Virus record (IMG/VR): IMGVR_UViG_3300044972_000129
Location: 1-29,461 of that record
From: a virus
Reading direction: 5' to 3' (one strand)
Length of the DNA stretch: 29,461 bases
Below the pieces are notes generated by a model, which saw only the letters and a program-made list of their open reading frames with translations, had not been told where the DNA came from and searched no databases. The position numbers were made by a program, and so were the translations under genes. Position 1 is the stretch's first letter. Every line of letters begins with the position of its first letter. Of this stretch, positions 11,360 through 20,394 are shown in pieces.

Positions 11360-12547
11360 TTATGCGAAGTAAAAGGTTCCTGGTCTATTATGAGCTTTGC
11401 AATCAACGGCAAGTGCGAGAGCCATCACACAGTCATCGTGTAGTCCGGGCGGTGCAGTATAACGCACACCCGTTCTTGTGTACTCAAATTCAAAGTTCTC
11501 CATCTCCGAGCCAATCGGTTCTTCAGGAAAGAACACATCGGTTTGTTGCACCGACATCACCAATCCTTCAATCAGTTGTTGTTTGCTTTGGCTGGTGAAC
11601 TTAAATCCCTTTACTCTTTGACAAAGTCGCTGAAGTTGTTCAACGATAGGATCTCCAACACCGGTACTATCCACAAACGATGGTGTGTTTCCAATGAGTT
11701 TGACAATCCTCGCTTGAGTTACTGACCAATCCGCTTGGAATCTCTCGCAGAATGATACGCAATTATTCGCATCCATACCAATAATAACCGTATAGTCCGA
11801 ATACTTTGCCAAATCCACACCCCACGCAACAACGGGCATTGATGATATTGGTCGGTAACATTTGCGGATTGCATCCAAGCCAAACGGATTCGACTTGTCA
11901 TCTGCTGGTTCTGCAAGGTAGAGTTCACGGAATACATAATCAGGTAGATCTCGCTTTGCTTGTTCAATCTCTTTCTCCGAGATGATGCCTTCCCTTGCTG
12001 CATCGTATGCCGTAATCTTGAAATACTTGTATTCGGCTTCTCCTTGCCTTGCTCGTTCCCCTAATTTATAGAACCAGTTCTTTTTGCCTTTGACATTCCC
12101 GATGAGTTTGCATTTGCCTTGTGTTGCAGTCAGCGTTGAACGGAGTGCATACCACGATTCCTCACGCATCCTTGATGCCTCATCAATCACCGCAGCATAG
12201 ACATCATCTCCATACAAGTTGTCCGGTTTCTCTCCTGACTTGAATTCAATCCTTGCACCCGTTGGCAAGGTCAACAATAGTTTTGTTTCGTTGCTGATGA
12301 AGAAGTTTTTGTCCGTGACTTGGTTCTTCATCCTTCGGAATGCAATCTCCGCTTGTTGGTATACTGGAGCAACCCACCACACCGACTGACCATCTTTGCA
12401 TTGGAGTGCTTGTTCAAAGAGCCAAATGATGTGTGATGCCGTCTTGCCAGTCTTGGTACTCGCAGCCGTAATAGTGAAACGGGCATCGCAATCAAGGATG
12501 TCTTTTTGGTAGTTGGTTAGATATGGTCGTGTGTAGTTTATTTGCAC
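11360..12547 (-). CDS. terL: Large terminase subunit (TerL)
   Basis: This 395-residue ATPase-nuclease drives DNA packaging into the prohead. The ATPase domain has a Walker A variant ASTKTGKT at 29-36, WVAPVYQQAEIAFRRMK after it, and Walker B AAVIDEA at 118-124. The RNase H-like nuclease domain shows WGVDLAKYSDYT near 245, FVDSTGVGDP near 295 and HDDCVMALALA from 370, which supply the acidic metal ligands. The gene overlaps the glycosyltransferase gene upstream by 10 bp and ends 2 bases before the chaperone start. The likely small subunit lies 2 kb upstream, separated by two glycosyltransferase genes. Confidence 0.93.
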   Translation of the reverse strand: MQINYTRPYLTNYQKDILDCDARFTITAASTKTGKTASHIIWLFEQALQCKDGQSVWWVAPVYQQAEIAFRRMKNQVTDKNFFISNETKLLLTLPTGARIEFKSGEKPDNLYGDDVYAAVIDEASRMREESWYALRSTLTATQGKCKLIGNVKGKKNWFYKLGERARQGEAEYKYFKITAYDAAREGIISEKEIEQAKRDLPDYVFRELYLAEPADDKSNPFGLDAIRKCYRPISSMPVVAWGVDLAKYSDYTVIIGMDANNCVSFCERFQADWSVTQARIVKLIGNTPSFVDSTGVGDPIVEQLQRLCQRVKGFKFTSQSKQQLIEGLVMSVQQTDVFFPEEPIGSEMENFEFEYTRTGVRYTAPPGLHDDCVMALALAVDCKAHNRPGTFYFA

Positions 12548-16609: not shown

Positions 16610-17089
16610 TCACACCGTAGAATATGTATTGACGAGCTTAGACCTTTCGTGCAGATGCAAACCCAGTAAGGATAAAGATTCGACATATAGTTTGTTGGTT
16701 GTTCGGTCATATTCTATAAGTGAATCGTACACTTGCACGGAGTTGATGATGGTTGAGTGATCACGGTGAAGAATCTTGCCGATGGAAAGATAGGTCATCT
16801 TCAAATGCTTTCTACATAAATAGCAAAACAAGTGCCGAGCATCCATAATGTTTTGAGTGCGAATCTTATCCACGATTGCATCAGGTGTGACATCATAGAC
16901 GATTGCAACTACTCGCATTGCTTCAGTCCACTCGGCATCTATCTCGTTGATCTTGCATCTTGGATTGATGATTTCATCTTTGAGTTTCTTGACCTCGTCA
17001 ATGCGTTTTTGATTCAGTTCTGCAACAACACCCCGAAGGCGTTTAACTTCTTGTTTAAGTAAATGTATTTCCTGATAGTAGTTTGTCAT
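16610..17089 (-). CDS. DnaA domain IV-like DNA-binding protein with coiled coil
   Basis: I start at ATG 17089 (MTNYYQEIHLLKQEVKRLRG), overlapping the methyltransferase stop by 4 bp; the longer frame to 17173 reads through methyltransferase sequence. The 159-residue product has an N-terminal coiled coil (about 5-40) and then a domain like the C-terminal DNA-binding domain of DnaA: VVAIVYDVTPDAIVDKIRTQ, DARHLFCYLCRKHLKMTYLS, and IGKILHRDHSTIINSV with the HRDHST signature at 108-113 that contacts DnaA boxes. The AAA+ ATPase domain is absent. It probably binds DnaA-like boxes in the phage origin or blocks host DnaA. It is encoded with DnaB and the replisome organiser. Confidence 0.8.
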   Translation of the reverse strand: MTNYYQEIHLLKQEVKRLRGVVAELNQKRIDEVKKLKDEIINPRCKINEIDAEWTEAMRVVAIVYDVTPDAIVDKIRTQNIMDARHLFCYLCRKHLKMTYLSIGKILHRDHSTIINSVQVYDSLIEYDRTTNKLYVESLSLLGLHLHERSKLVNTYSTV

Positions 17090-17925
17090 AACTCGTTTAT
17101 AATTTGAAATAATTGATAGGCAATTTGTGGAACTATTGCGTTGCCGTATCCTTTGATGGATTCTGCTCTCCACTTTGAAAAGGCAATGCCGTCCAATTTG
17201 GTGGGAAGCCCATCATCTCCGCTACAAATCGGGGATTGAGTTGGGAAGATATGCCAAGTGTTTCCGTCAATTGGCTGTTGGATTTGCGTTTTACTTTTGA
17301 CCCTCTCCAATCTGATACGATTGGTGTTGGTAGCAAAGCTCTGATTTCCGGGTTTCCCAAACTGAAATTTACTCCCCCTTTTGATTGCCAACTCTTGCTT
17401 GTTGTTTTGTCGCGATAGTCCGTAGCTTGTGGGGTGGGTATAAATTCCAATGAACCAACACCTATCTCTTCGGTGCGGTGCGTTTTTGGCTGCAGCTGGA
17501 ATAATAAACGGCTGTACTTCGTACCCTTCAGTTTCCAAGTCAAGGCACACCTGCTCGAATACCAATCCGCCATCAATATGCGTGATACCAAAAACATTTT
17601 CTGCGATGACGAATTTGGGTTTAATTTCTTGTATTGCTCTAAGCATCTCGCCCCACAAGTAGCGTTCATCTTCCGTACCTTTCTTTTTTCCTGATGATGA
17701 AAACGGTTGGCAAGGGAATCCACCGGTAAGAATGTCAATTGTGTTTGCATATTTTTTGAAATCAGTTGTACAAATATCTATGTGACTATCCGCATCAGGG
17801 AAGTGATAGTCCAATACTTTTCGTGGAAATTCCATCCACTCGCAATGAAAGATGTTTTCCCATCCCATCCACTCGGCTGCTAAATCAAAGCCACCTATTC
17901 CTGAAAATAAACTTCCGTGTCTCAT
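17086..17925 (-). CDS. dcm: DNA C5-cytosine methyltransferase
   Basis: The 279-residue enzyme has the ordered motifs of C5-cytosine methyltransferases: FSGIGGFDLA (7-16, cofactor binding), GGFPCQPFS (68-76, catalytic Cys72), ENV (109-111), APHRRDR (149-155) and the final GYGNAIVPQIAYQLF (259-273). The target-recognition part between 160 and 255 is short. It should transfer a methyl group from S-adenosylmethionine to a cytosine, probably protecting phage DNA from host restriction; no partner nuclease is encoded nearby. It overlaps DnaB by 4 bp upstream and the DnaA-like gene by 4 bp downstream. A second long frame lies inside it (17133-17750). Confidence 0.92.
   Translation of the reverse strand: MRHGSLFSGIGGFDLAAEWMGWENIFHCEWMEFPRKVLDYHFPDADSHIDICTTDFKKYANTIDILTGGFPCQPFSSSGKKKGTEDERYLWGEMLRAIQEIKPKFVIAENVFGITHIDGGLVFEQVCLDLETEGYEVQPFIIPAAAKNAPHRRDRCWFIGIYTHPTSYGLSRQNNKQELAIKRGSKFQFGKPGNQSFATNTNRIRLERVKSKTQIQQPIDGNTWHIFPTQSPICSGDDGLPTKLDGIAFSKWRAESIKGYGNAIVPQIAYQLFQIINEL
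17133..17750 (-). other. Long +1 open frame inside the methyltransferase gene
   Basis: This 205-codon frame lies on the same strand as the methyltransferase, shifted by +1, and covers its codons from about 59 to 264. Its translation looks protein-like: SSRCALTWKLKGTKYSRLLF, then LPTPIVSDWRGSK, then LNPRFVAEMMGFPPNWTALP. From memory, the last phrase resembles the LNPxxVExMMGFPxxWT segment found in-frame in other C5 methyltransferases, and the ALTWK phrase recurs in proteins of Bacteroidota phages. It may be an overprinted gene, a remnant of an alternative recognition domain, or an accident of a conserved nucleotide sequence. Confidence 0.35.
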
Positions 17926-19160
17926 AGTCGTTCTTGGTACATTGTGCGTTCACCGATGAATGTCGTTTTAATTGTGTAGCATTCACCGTGACGATTCTTT
18001 GCGATAATTAGTTCGGCTTCTTCTTGCTGGAGCTTCTCACCTGAATAGTATGCCGGGCGGAATGGGAACATCACAACATCCGCATCTTGCTCAATACTTC
18101 CACTCTCACGGATATCGCTCAGCATAGGTCTTTTGTCCGCTCTCTCCTCACATTTGCGTGATAACTGAGCCAACACTATCACTGTGATATTTAGTTCCTT
18201 AGAAAGCAATTTTAAGTTTCTTGATATTTCTGCAATCTCTTGCTCTCGGTTTGTTTTTGTTCCTTTGATCAACTGGATGTAATCAATGACTAAAAGTTCA
18301 AGTCCGTGTTTCGCTTTGTGAATCTTGGCTTTGGATTTGATTTGTTGGATACTGCAATTCGGATCATCGTCAATGTAAAATTGAACCGTCTGATTGTTGG
18401 CTGAATTGATAAGTTGCTGAACTTCAAACTCACGAAGGTTTGCATTGCGAATCTTCCAATTGGCAAGGTCGGTGATCAGCGACAAGTATCTTTTGACAAG
18501 TTGTTCGTTGCTCATCTCTAGCGACAAGAACAATCCCTTTCCACCAATCTTTGCAAAGTCATACATCAAAGACAAAGCGAGTGCCGTTTTACCCTGACCG
18601 GGTCGTGCAGCCATTACAATCAAATCACCATTGTTCCATCCTCCCAATACTCGGTCAAGTCCTGCCCATCCCGTTGGTCTTCCCGTGAGCTTGTCACCTC
18701 TTTGCACCGCCTCAATAATAGCATCAACCGTCTTGTTGGTAACTTGGGTAATCGTGACGGGATCATTGATGGTTGTGAACTTCGTGTTGTCGACCATTGT
18801 CTGAACATTTGTGAGAATCTCTTTTAAGTCAGATGTCAAATCCAAGTTGGTGATGTTCTCGATAAATTGTTTCTTCAGGTACTTGTGTTCAAGTGCTGGA
18901 AGGTGACTACTGATGTTTGGCATCCCATAAACATTCTGCGTGAGTTTGACGATTGTCACCATCTCAGCACGGCTGAACTTTTTCCCCAATGTCAGCACAT
19001 CAATCTCATCGTTGTTGATGTACATTTCCAACATTGATTCAACAATGCGTTTGTTTAGGTTGTCTTCAAACCATTGTGATTTGATTCTCGGCAACATTGC
19101 ACGAGTTTGGTCGTAGAATAAAAGTTGACCGATTATGTATTCTTCAAGTTCGTTCGTCAT
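17922..19160 (-). CDS. dnaB: Replicative DNA helicase, DnaB family
   Basis: I start at ATG 19160 (MTNELEEYIIGQLLFYDQTR, 412 residues); the frame is open further to 19211, but those codons overlap the upstream gene and look unrelated. The N-terminal domain is helical. The RecA-like domain has PTGWAGLDRVLGGW before Walker A RPGQGKT (186-192), Walker B LLVIDY (289-294), the AQLSRKCEERADKRPMLSDI segment and RESGSIEQDADVV, which are standard DnaB motifs including the arginine-rich subunit interface. It unwinds DNA at the replication fork. It lies between the replisome organiser and the methyltransferase, overlapping each, so the phage brings its own helicase and loader-type partner. Confidence 0.92.
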   Translation of the reverse strand: MTNELEEYIIGQLLFYDQTRAMLPRIKSQWFEDNLNKRIVESMLEMYINNDEIDVLTLGKKFSRAEMVTIVKLTQNVYGMPNISSHLPALEHKYLKKQFIENITNLDLTSDLKEILTNVQTMVDNTKFTTINDPVTITQVTNKTVDAIIEAVQRGDKLTGRPTGWAGLDRVLGGWNNGDLIVMAARPGQGKTALALSLMYDFAKIGGKGLFLSLEMSNEQLVKRYLSLITDLANWKIRNANLREFEVQQLINSANNQTVQFYIDDDPNCSIQQIKSKAKIHKAKHGLELLVIDYIQLIKGTKTNREQEIAEISRNLKLLSKELNITVIVLAQLSRKCEERADKRPMLSDIRESGSIEQDADVVMFPFRPAYYSGEKLQQEEAELIIAKNRHGECYTIKTTFIGERTMYQERL

Positions 19161-19737
19161 ATTCTCGCAAGTTAAATACTTTTCTGTTGATAACTTGTGG
19201 AGTAGTAACATTATTTGAAAGATTATTATTTTTCCAAGTGCGAACCGCTGCTCTCCAGTTCTTCATTTTGTTTTTACCTACAAGCCATCCGTTGGATTCG
19301 TAGTAGTCAAACCATTTCTCGGATACATCAGCCATTCCAATTTCTAACATATAGGTTTTTAACTCTGATAAAGTTGGTTTTATAAAAACAACTCTTTGTT
19401 TCTTTATATCTTTATCAATACCACTATCAATAACAATATCACTATCGGCATTTTTGGTATCATTTGGTATGCCACTTGATGCGGTCGCATCCCATCGCAT
19501 ACGAGCATTGTCAGAATTACGCTTCCTGATTGTTTCGTATTTATCCAAATCACGCTTTAACGCTTGTCGGATTGGTTCAAATGCAATCTTGGTTATCACA
19601 CTATCACTTTGTGGATTAAGGTCGTTCACATAGCGTAAAAGGTGCTTGAACAAATCACCAGCTTGTTCATCGGTTAGTTGCTCAACCGTGTGAATTATAT
19701 CGCAGTAGATCAAGAATGATTTTTTATCCGTTGCCAT
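19144..19737 (-). CDS. Replisome organiser-like protein (DUF6291-type)
   Basis: I start at ATG 19737 (MATDKKSFLIYCDIIHTVEQ), 197 residues; the frame extends to 19824 inside the endonuclease gene but lacks family-like sequence there. The N-terminal domain has LTDEQAGDLFKHLLRYVNDL and the helix YETIRKRNSDNARMRW, typical of DUF6291 and related replication proteins. The C-terminal segment SNGWLVGKNKMKNWRAAVRT, then WKNNN, matches the end of phage replication initiators and helicase loaders that bind DnaB. It is followed directly by DnaB. I infer a helicase-loading or origin-binding role. The low-complexity linker with many Asp and Ser residues (near 90-110) separates the two parts. Confidence 0.75.
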   Translation of the reverse strand: MATDKKSFLIYCDIIHTVEQLTDEQAGDLFKHLLRYVNDLNPQSDSVITKIAFEPIRQALKRDLDKYETIRKRNSDNARMRWDATASSGIPNDTKNADSDIVIDSGIDKDIKKQRVVFIKPTLSELKTYMLEIGMADVSEKWFDYYESNGWLVGKNKMKNWRAAVRTWKNNNLSNNVTTPQVINRKVFNLREYDERT

Positions 19738-20251
19738 TGTAGTTGATGTAAAAGAATCTTTGAATTTCACGCTTTTTATGATGCCTTTGTTTGTGACAAG
19801 TGTAAGATTGATTAGTGTCTTCACAAGCTAATTTTAACGAATCATATTTCACGCCAGTTGTTATATCAATTACCGGCTTTGATCTTGCTAATCTTAAGGA
19901 TTCGCATAACCCATTCTGCCAAGCGTGTATTATATTCTCCTTTGATGTTGCCCATTCAAGATTGTCTTTGTGATTGTTTAATTTGTTGCCATCAATGTGA
20001 TTTACTGTGTATTTATTTTCCAAATTTTCCATAAATGCCAAAGCAACTAACCGATGTATTTTTATAGTTTTTTTATTTGACTTAATTGTTAAAACTACTG
20101 CTAAATATTGATTACCAGGTACTCCAACTAATCCCGGTTTCAAAATTCGTTCTTTGCCATACTTGTAGCTCTTGACTCTCCCGTGACTGGAGATGTAGTA
20201 GATGCCATTGCTATCAGCAATCGGCTTCCATATTTCTTGTTGTGTTTCCAT
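19724..20251 (-). CDS. NUMOD4/HNH homing endonuclease
   Basis: The 175-residue product has three modules of a free-standing homing endonuclease. NUMOD4 is at the N-terminus (EIWKPIADSNGIYYISSHGR). The HNH core has HRLVALAFMENLENKYTVNH followed by IDGNKLNNHKDNLEWATSKE. A NUMOD1-like DNA-binding end has KPVIDITTGVKYDSLKLACE. Such genes move by cutting DNA at a target site, and they usually contribute nothing to phage replication. Its last 14 bases contain the start of the replisome organiser. A strong intrinsic terminator ends 11 bases before its ATG, so its expression requires read-through. Confidence 0.88.
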   Translation of the reverse strand: METQQEIWKPIADSNGIYYISSHGRVKSYKYGKERILKPGLVGVPGNQYLAVVLTIKSNKKTIKIHRLVALAFMENLENKYTVNHIDGNKLNNHKDNLEWATSKENIIHAWQNGLCESLRLARSKPVIDITTGVKYDSLKLACEDTNQSYTCHKQRHHKKREIQRFFYINYNGNG

Positions 20252-20262
20252 TTTTTTTGCAT

Positions 20263-20315
20263 AAAAAAAGCCTTATCAAAATGATGCAATTGCGGTGCGA
20301 TCATTCTAATAAGGC
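20263..20315 (-). terminator. Rho-independent terminator ahead of the homing endonuclease gene
   Basis: On the minus strand GCCTTAT (20315-20309) pairs with ATAAGGC (20276-20270), followed inwards by a 3x3 internal loop and a second 6-bp stem (20305-20300 with 20085-equivalent bases 20085 replaced here by 20085's true location 20280-20285). The stem is followed directly by seven T residues (20269-20263). It is a strong intrinsic terminator shape located 11 bases before ATG 20251. Confidence 0.85.
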
Positions 20316-20357
20316 AAAAATCTTGTAACGATGGGAATCCGCAATACTCCCGTTTAC
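20263..20357 (-). ncRNA. Candidate ~95-nt leader RNA or attenuator
   Basis: A canonical promoter (20394-20363) would start transcription near 20357, and the terminator at 20315-20263 would end it after about 95 bases. No open frame of useful length lies in this RNA. The leader part contains ATTGCGG (20345-20339), which is perfectly complementary to CCGCAAT (20295-20289) in the terminator's apical loop, so an alternative fold or a loop contact is possible. It may be a small RNA or an attenuator for the replication genes downstream. Confidence 0.5.
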
Positions 20358-20362
20358 TCTTA

Positions 20363-20394
20363 CAAATATAGCGAATTACTTGGGTTGTTCCAAA
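20363..20394 (-). promoter_or_regulatory. Canonical Bacteroidota-type promoter
   Basis: On the minus strand TTTG (20394-20391) and TATATTTG (20370-20363) are separated by exactly 20 bases, matching TTTG-N19-21-TAnnTTTG. The -33 element overlaps the last codons of the 53-residue gene. The stretch 20252-20375 holds this promoter's -7 box, the leader and the terminator, and no gene. Confidence 0.75.

Follow-up and report, generated by a model that had tools for sequence, protein, structure and literature searches.

A candidate kissing-loop transcription attenuator at the head of the replication genes of flavobacterial phages

In ColE1, RNA I and RNA II meet through fully complementary 7-nt hairpin loops whose words are hypervariable within a constant frame; this kissing is intermolecular and targets the replication primer, and a terminator loop plays no part in it. 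Phage cases are the c4 antisense RNA and the P4 CI RNA, short RNAs that control expression ahead of replication genes by pairing. The rep attenuators of plasmids pT181 and pIP501 place a leader hairpin and a terminator just upstream of the replication-initiator gene, and the leader is kissed by a separate antisense RNA. In attenuators of the pT181 type the kissing loops set specificity, and a changed kissing word makes orthogonal variants (PMC4878617). Among phage leaders, the put RNA of HK022 lies at the start of early operons and controls termination; it binds RNA polymerase and so suppresses both pausing and termination (PMC9378689). IsrK of a Salmonella prophage is a terminator-ended short RNA that has a read-through mRNA isoform (PMC4825925).

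The leader described here shares features with each of these systems. In its predicted working it comes closest to the plasmid rep attenuators, with the same hairpin and terminator just ahead of a replication-initiator gene, but the antisense RNA by which the pT181 type is defined is missing: the partner loop lies in the same transcript, in the terminator itself. The likeness to ColE1 consists in complementary 7-nt loops and variable words in a constant frame, whereas here the contact would form within one RNA and involve a terminator loop. As with put, a phage leader at the start of an early operon would control termination; unlike put, one hairpin of the leader is itself the terminator. The pair of short RNA and read-through mRNA recalls IsrK, which differs in sequence, host and structure and acts on an antiterminator gene; in the part of the published account drawn on here, loop-loop covariation is not described for IsrK (PMC4825925).

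The window, meaning the whole stretch of DNA analysed, is 29,461 bases long; it is a viral contig that encodes terminase, portal, tape-measure and tail proteins. Behind the leader (Table 1), the DUF6291 protein is probably a replication initiator or organiser, and in Flavobacterium phage elemoA and Riemerella phage RAP44 its relatives carry the annotation "replication protein". The HNH and DUF6291 genes share 14 bases (19724-19737), where the first ends and the second starts, so that the endonuclease gene is closely packed into the replication operon, behind the leader and ahead of the initiator. Where relatives have the HNH gene the leader precedes it, and where they lack it the leader abuts the DUF6291 ATG; thus the leader is part of the replication operon, not an appendage of the endonuclease gene. 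Genes for ERF and YqaJ recombination proteins lie just upstream of the leader in transcription order. After DnaB, positions 16613-17925 encode a C5 DNA methyltransferase and a protein with a DnaA C-terminal DNA-binding domain, and small DnaA-like proteins similar to it are also found in Flavobacterium phage tooticki6-1 and Cellulophaga phage phi13:2.

Table 1. Leader features and downstream genes in the window
Feature	Positions	Strand	Details and basis
Promoter TTTG-N20-TATATTTG	20363..20394	minus	Bacteroidota sigma-A (ABfr) type; -33 TTTG 20394-20391; -7 TATATTTG 20370-20363; predicted transcription start ~20358; pattern search and published consensus
P1/P2 hairpin	20325..20357	minus	P1 20357-20354 with 20328-20325; P2 20351-20346 with 20338-20333; folding and covariation
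L2, 7-nt loop AUUGCGG	20339..20345	minus	closed by P2; putative kissing partner of L3; covariation
Linker AAGAUUUUU	20316..20324	minus	between P1 and terminator; geometry table
P3, intrinsic-terminator hairpin (predicted)	20270..20315	minus	16 bp (arms 20315-20300 and 20285-20270), one bulged base (20299) and a 3-bp GCA/UGC clamp next to L3; 19 bp in all
L3, 7-nt terminator loop CCGCAAU	20289..20295	minus	putative kissing partner of L2; covariation
U7 run of terminator	20263..20269	minus	predicted 3' end of the ~96-nt short RNA
NUMOD4-HNH endonuclease	19724..20251	minus	PF07463, PF13392; first gene after terminator; absent in many relatives
DUF6291 protein	19144..19737	minus	PF19808; overlaps HNH gene end
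DnaB-like replicative helicase	17922..19163	minus	PF03796; same operon as HNH and DUF6291

The Bacteroidota promoter consensus consists of TTTG at -33 and TAnnTTTG at -7 (PMC6847099), and the window promoter has both. As the -7 box spans -12 to -5 (PMC9723704), transcription is predicted to start near 20358, which gives a leader of 96 nt with all features of the element on the minus strand. TAnnTTTG also precedes the element in relatives; across the wider set the -7 box is nearly invariant and the -33 element weaker. An E. coli-like TATAAT at 20399-20394, part of an E. coli-type promoter at 20422-20394, is probably irrelevant, since the Bacteroidota promoter is conserved and suits the host type. 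For the complete leader, the predicted folding energy is -31.4 kcal/mol (z -3.7). Exactly 11 bases separate the U-run from the HNH ATG (20251), and TAnnTTTG is absent from that gap. The terminator stands between the promoter and the first gene of the operon, as in attenuators generally. An earlier note on this DNA, made from the sequence alone, had reported the promoter, the terminator, the 11-base gap and a 7-base complement; recomputation confirmed each, and comparative evidence backs the order it described, namely, promoter, leader of ~95 nt, terminator and replication genes. Positions 20262-20249 read ATGC-A8-TGG, where the first ATG is not in the HNH reading frame; close relatives (e.g., L004) have A9 instead, placing the ATG at the U-run in frame with HNH. 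Poly-A slippage or a start-site switch is a possible explanation of this difference.

The terminator hairpin taken alone folds at -23.1 kcal/mol (z = -5.0; 0 of 200 shuffles as good) and is directly followed by the U-run, as predicted for an intrinsic (rho-independent) terminator; the T columns of the run are invariant in the leader alignment. A pattern scan did not list this terminator. The complement between 20345-20339 and 20295-20289 is exact over 7 nt, and a refinement of the earlier description is that both 7-mers are complete hairpin loops. This points to a loop-loop (kissing) contact, compatible with both stems intact. We rejected an antiterminator that must break the terminator stem as the pairing here, as L2:L3 can form with both stems in place.

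To trace the loop pair, relatives were gathered by scans with DUF6291 and the small upstream gene, yielding ~130 related contigs, and 35 distinct leaders were aligned for covariation. L2:L3 is paired in 245 of 245 cells, all Watson-Crick, and six of its seven pairs have changed on both sides. Double changes are also seen in P1 (3 of 6 pairs), P2 (4 of 5, with 98% paired) and P3 (12 of 19), for a total of 25 of 37 over the whole structure. None of 500 shuffles reaches the observed covariation score, and sliding the partner by 1 to 3 columns lowers pairing from 95% to 35-52%. The earlier note had allowed that the 7-base match might be due to chance (a few per cent) and had named covariation of the two segments in relatives as the test. 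The complementarity is kept with changed letters across the 35 leaders, with no loss observed, and so it is not chance; the comparative evidence supports a functional relevance of the match. In addition, the many G-U pairs in P3 imply that the transcribed strand is under selection as RNA. Taken together, these alignments indicate that the element is a real RNA structure kept by evolution. They also bear on whether the hairpins might be initiation structures of a replication origin, formed in single-stranded DNA and not in RNA. The location at the head of a replication module would suit such an origin, but a TAnnTTTG promoter always lies ahead, a U-run ends the element on the transcribed strand, and the G-U pairs tolerated in P3 would be A-C mismatches on the other strand, which makes this origin reading very improbable.

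Controlled scans lead to the same site. A descriptor that asks for a terminator loop complementary to an upstream hairpin loop returned 111 matches in ~130 loci, about 100 of them at this site, and the same descriptor returned 11 matches on reversed sequence. When a strict descriptor was applied to 133 distinct regions ahead of DUF6291, 68 passed, compared with 1.5% of dinucleotide shuffles. Most phage regions that the strict descriptor missed show 6- to 9-nt versions by eye (CGTCTGAC, CCTTCGAC, GGTCTCAC and GCTCTCACA); by direct reading, the element was not seen in three contigs (L244, L261 and L277) or in bacterial genome loci. From the end of L2 to the start of the terminator there are 23 nt in the window, which is also the typical value, and 21-25 nt in most elements. 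Such near-constant spacing is expected of a contact within one molecule. Terminators are common between phage genes and a gene upstream of this one ends at 20376, so an ordinary terminator of upstream genes with a coincidental 7-nt match might be proposed. However, compensatory change has preserved the match through some 30 different loop words, and no such loop pairs occur at the other terminators that these phages carry; on the covariation and the scans with controls, we regard a chance match in a plain terminator as ruled out.

Phages known from metagenomes share this plan with cultured phages of Flavobacterium and Cellulophaga. Promoter-anchored extraction gave 102 distinct elements with 36 loop words, each 6-9 nt long; as a few of these may be spurious, we count about 30 different words. 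The element lies directly before genes for DUF6291, for DnaD/O-like replication initiators or for an endonuclease that heads the replication module. First genes unrelated to DUF6291 encode replication-initiation proteins (phrog_270 and phrog_9474), a primosomal protein (phrog_9327), DnaD-like helicase loaders (phrog_186), GIY-YIG-like and HNH endonucleases, including NUMOD4-HNH, and small proteins without assigned function. While the first gene varies, the position is conserved, and its shared constant is the head of a replication module.

Among cultured phages, the word GTCGTCG precedes a NUMOD4 endonuclease gene in Flavobacterium phages tooticki6-1, hattifnatt9-1 and snork6-2. Phage tooticki6-1 (L190; MN812240.1) has elements at 11679 and 12729 with different words, one before endonuclease gp032 and a second, with the word GTGAGACG, before gp035 and DUF6291. 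The word is CGGGCAGG in phage 11b, TGAGAGC in elemoA and CTCTCACAA in phi13:2, and the element is absent before the DUF6291 gene of RAP44. As tooticki6-1 is virulent (PMC7077304), lysogenic immunity is not the role in it and like carriers, and the Rfam search gave no match to c4.

A covariance model, R1, recognises HNH-type leaders of other sequence, and the second tooticki6-1 element only weakly. R1 is of limited reach and may pass over divergent copies; it gave one match in 199 Flavobacterium genomes (L280) and two weak matches in 8 other genomes (L278 and L279). No convincing host-encoded copy was found with it: all three sequences form plain terminators or repeats in which the loop pair is missing, and none of the DUF6291 loci in 15 bacterial genome contigs passes the descriptor. 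In Rfam 15 no family matches at the gathering threshold, and a relaxed cutoff gives only subthreshold noise; in the open-licence papers searched, no prior description of the element was found. We therefore regard it as an apparently undescribed RNA family outside Rfam, a candidate transcription attenuator leader. Two other known classes were considered and rejected. A type III toxin-antitoxin locus (ToxIN-like) does not fit a leader without tandem repeats and downstream genes for an endonuclease and replication, and for a group I intron with HNH, the Rfam search of the window found no group I core.

The reading that we favor, with a probability of roughly 0.6, is that of a cis-acting kissing-loop transcription attenuator that meters the phage replication operon. 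Host RNA polymerase would initiate at the dedicated promoter, and the P1/P2 hairpin with loop L2 would fold first. As L3 and the 5' arm of the terminator leave the polymerase, L2 would capture L3 in a loop-loop helix of 6-9 bp before the 3' arm is made, and the outcome of kissing, together with P3 closure, would set the choice between termination and read-through. By default an RNA of ~96 nt would be released at the U-run, and regulated read-through would yield the mRNA for HNH, DUF6291 and DnaB. Kissing may speed closure of the terminator, or it may strain it and so favor read-through. The sequence itself displays the promoter motif, the two hairpins, the U-run, the L2:L3 pairing, the place ahead of the first gene of a replication module, and copies both homologous and analogous; efficient termination, regulated read-through and kissing as the switch, with the direction of its effect, are what we infer. 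Across elements, 7-20 nt separate the end of the terminator hairpin from the first AUG. Since translation initiation in Flavobacterium relies partly on a start region free of structure (PMC6847099), a folded P3 should also hinder translation of the read-through mRNA. Against the attenuator, a complete P3 plus kissing demands a sharp bend of the ~9-nt linker. In nascent folds, an extended L2:L3 stem that would act as an antiterminator, as does the pT181-type fold that sequesters the 5' arm of the terminator, is predicted for the GTAGAAG type and not for all types, and no conserved alternative (antiterminator) fold was found among types.

The earlier note had listed an attenuator, an antitermination site or a small RNA gene. 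The sequence supports an attenuator that would also make a small RNA, roles that sequence cannot separate. If the ~96-nt RNA were itself the functional product, it could act in trans through L2 or L3 on other transcripts or on its own read-through mRNA, with kissing serving RNA stability or self-inhibition. The compact unit of promoter, hairpin and terminator would suit this, and IsrK of Salmonella Gifsy-1 is a precedent for a prophage short RNA with a read-through mRNA (PMC4825925). In some leaders the L2 word appears a third time, between the U-run and the ATG, and there matches the leader's own L3 over 6-8 nt. This occurs in two lineages, one DUF6291 clade and the type-C HNH leaders; the loci are L249, L252, L254, L256, L262, L264 and L267 and, of HNH type C, L013, L020, L026 and L068, with the copies AGTCGCAG in L249, AGAGCAGT in L256 and TCGCAGCA in type-C HNH leaders; the copy is 8 nt long in L249, L256 and L013 and 6 nt long in L252 and L254. 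There, L3 could block the start, and the arrangement suggests a translational layer in which L3 may pair with either L2 or the translation start, in cis or in trans. However, 88 of 102 elements, the window included, lack the third copy, which makes it an elaboration and not the core function, and the conserved L2-P3 spacing and the placement always before a replication gene point to a role in cis. We hold the small-RNA reading to be tentative and unlikely.

Alternatively, the leader might be a scaffold for a phage or host factor, such as an antiterminator or a replication protein, whose binding would switch termination or translation. The structure is kept while letters change, and its geometry is constant, as a scaffold would be, and the associated replication proteins are unrelated. 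But loop and stem letters are nearly free, save GU...AG at the ends of L2 in the main type; as the downstream proteins are nonhomologous, one common protein partner would have to read shape only, and a candidate gene for the binding factor was not found. A scaffold of this kind is thus quite improbable. Control by a separate antisense RNA, as in pT181, was rejected: TAnnTTTG promoters on the opposite strand are not enriched over the elements and are rarer than expected (11 found versus 20.9 expected).

The cis attenuator would define an apparently unlisted class of structured RNA, widespread in flavobacterial phages and situated at the point of a lytic phage's commitment to DNA replication. 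With about 30 natural loop words, the loop-loop rule is directly testable. The element would offer a handle on how Bacteroidota phages time the expression of their replication genes, and would supply a ready set of terminator switches for Bacteroidota.

A closer look at relatives shows that leaders and their surroundings have different histories. Between the window and two relatives (L014 and L061), the 300 bases before the leader are 94-97% identical, while the leaders, at 67-70%, are at about the level of unrelated AT-rich sequence and have different words. Conversely, leaders of type A, 96-100% identical, occur with HNH proteins of 56-100% identity. Similar flanks with unlike leaders, and like leaders with unlike HNH proteins, imply that the leader recombines as a unit. 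It is conceivable, though we think it doubtful, that virulent phages use plasmid-style RNA copy-number control, with terminated leader RNAs accumulating with genome copies, kissing in trans and shutting off read-through into the initiator. Words would then diversify to avoid cross-reaction with a second element or a coinfecting relative, resulting in orthogonal or incompatibility-like groups traded as leader cassettes. A comparison of rates of change in loops and stems found no consistent excess in loops and hence does not demonstrate diversifying selection.

Further observations concern individual leaders. Compared over 20363-20262 with L014, L061, L068 and L071, the window has flanks 85-97% identical and leaders 67-70% identical, and both hairpins and loop words differ. 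Upstream of position 2501 in L282, a variant element with promoter box TATATTCG and a 6-nt word (GGTCAG/CTGACC) precedes a replication initiator that L137 has in nearly identical form; the leaders of the two are different, another leader swap. The GTGAGAG element of L137 (12538-12650) and of L283 is overlapped by a second potential hairpin pair, CTGCGGTA, perhaps an alternative fold that involves sequence ahead of the promoter.
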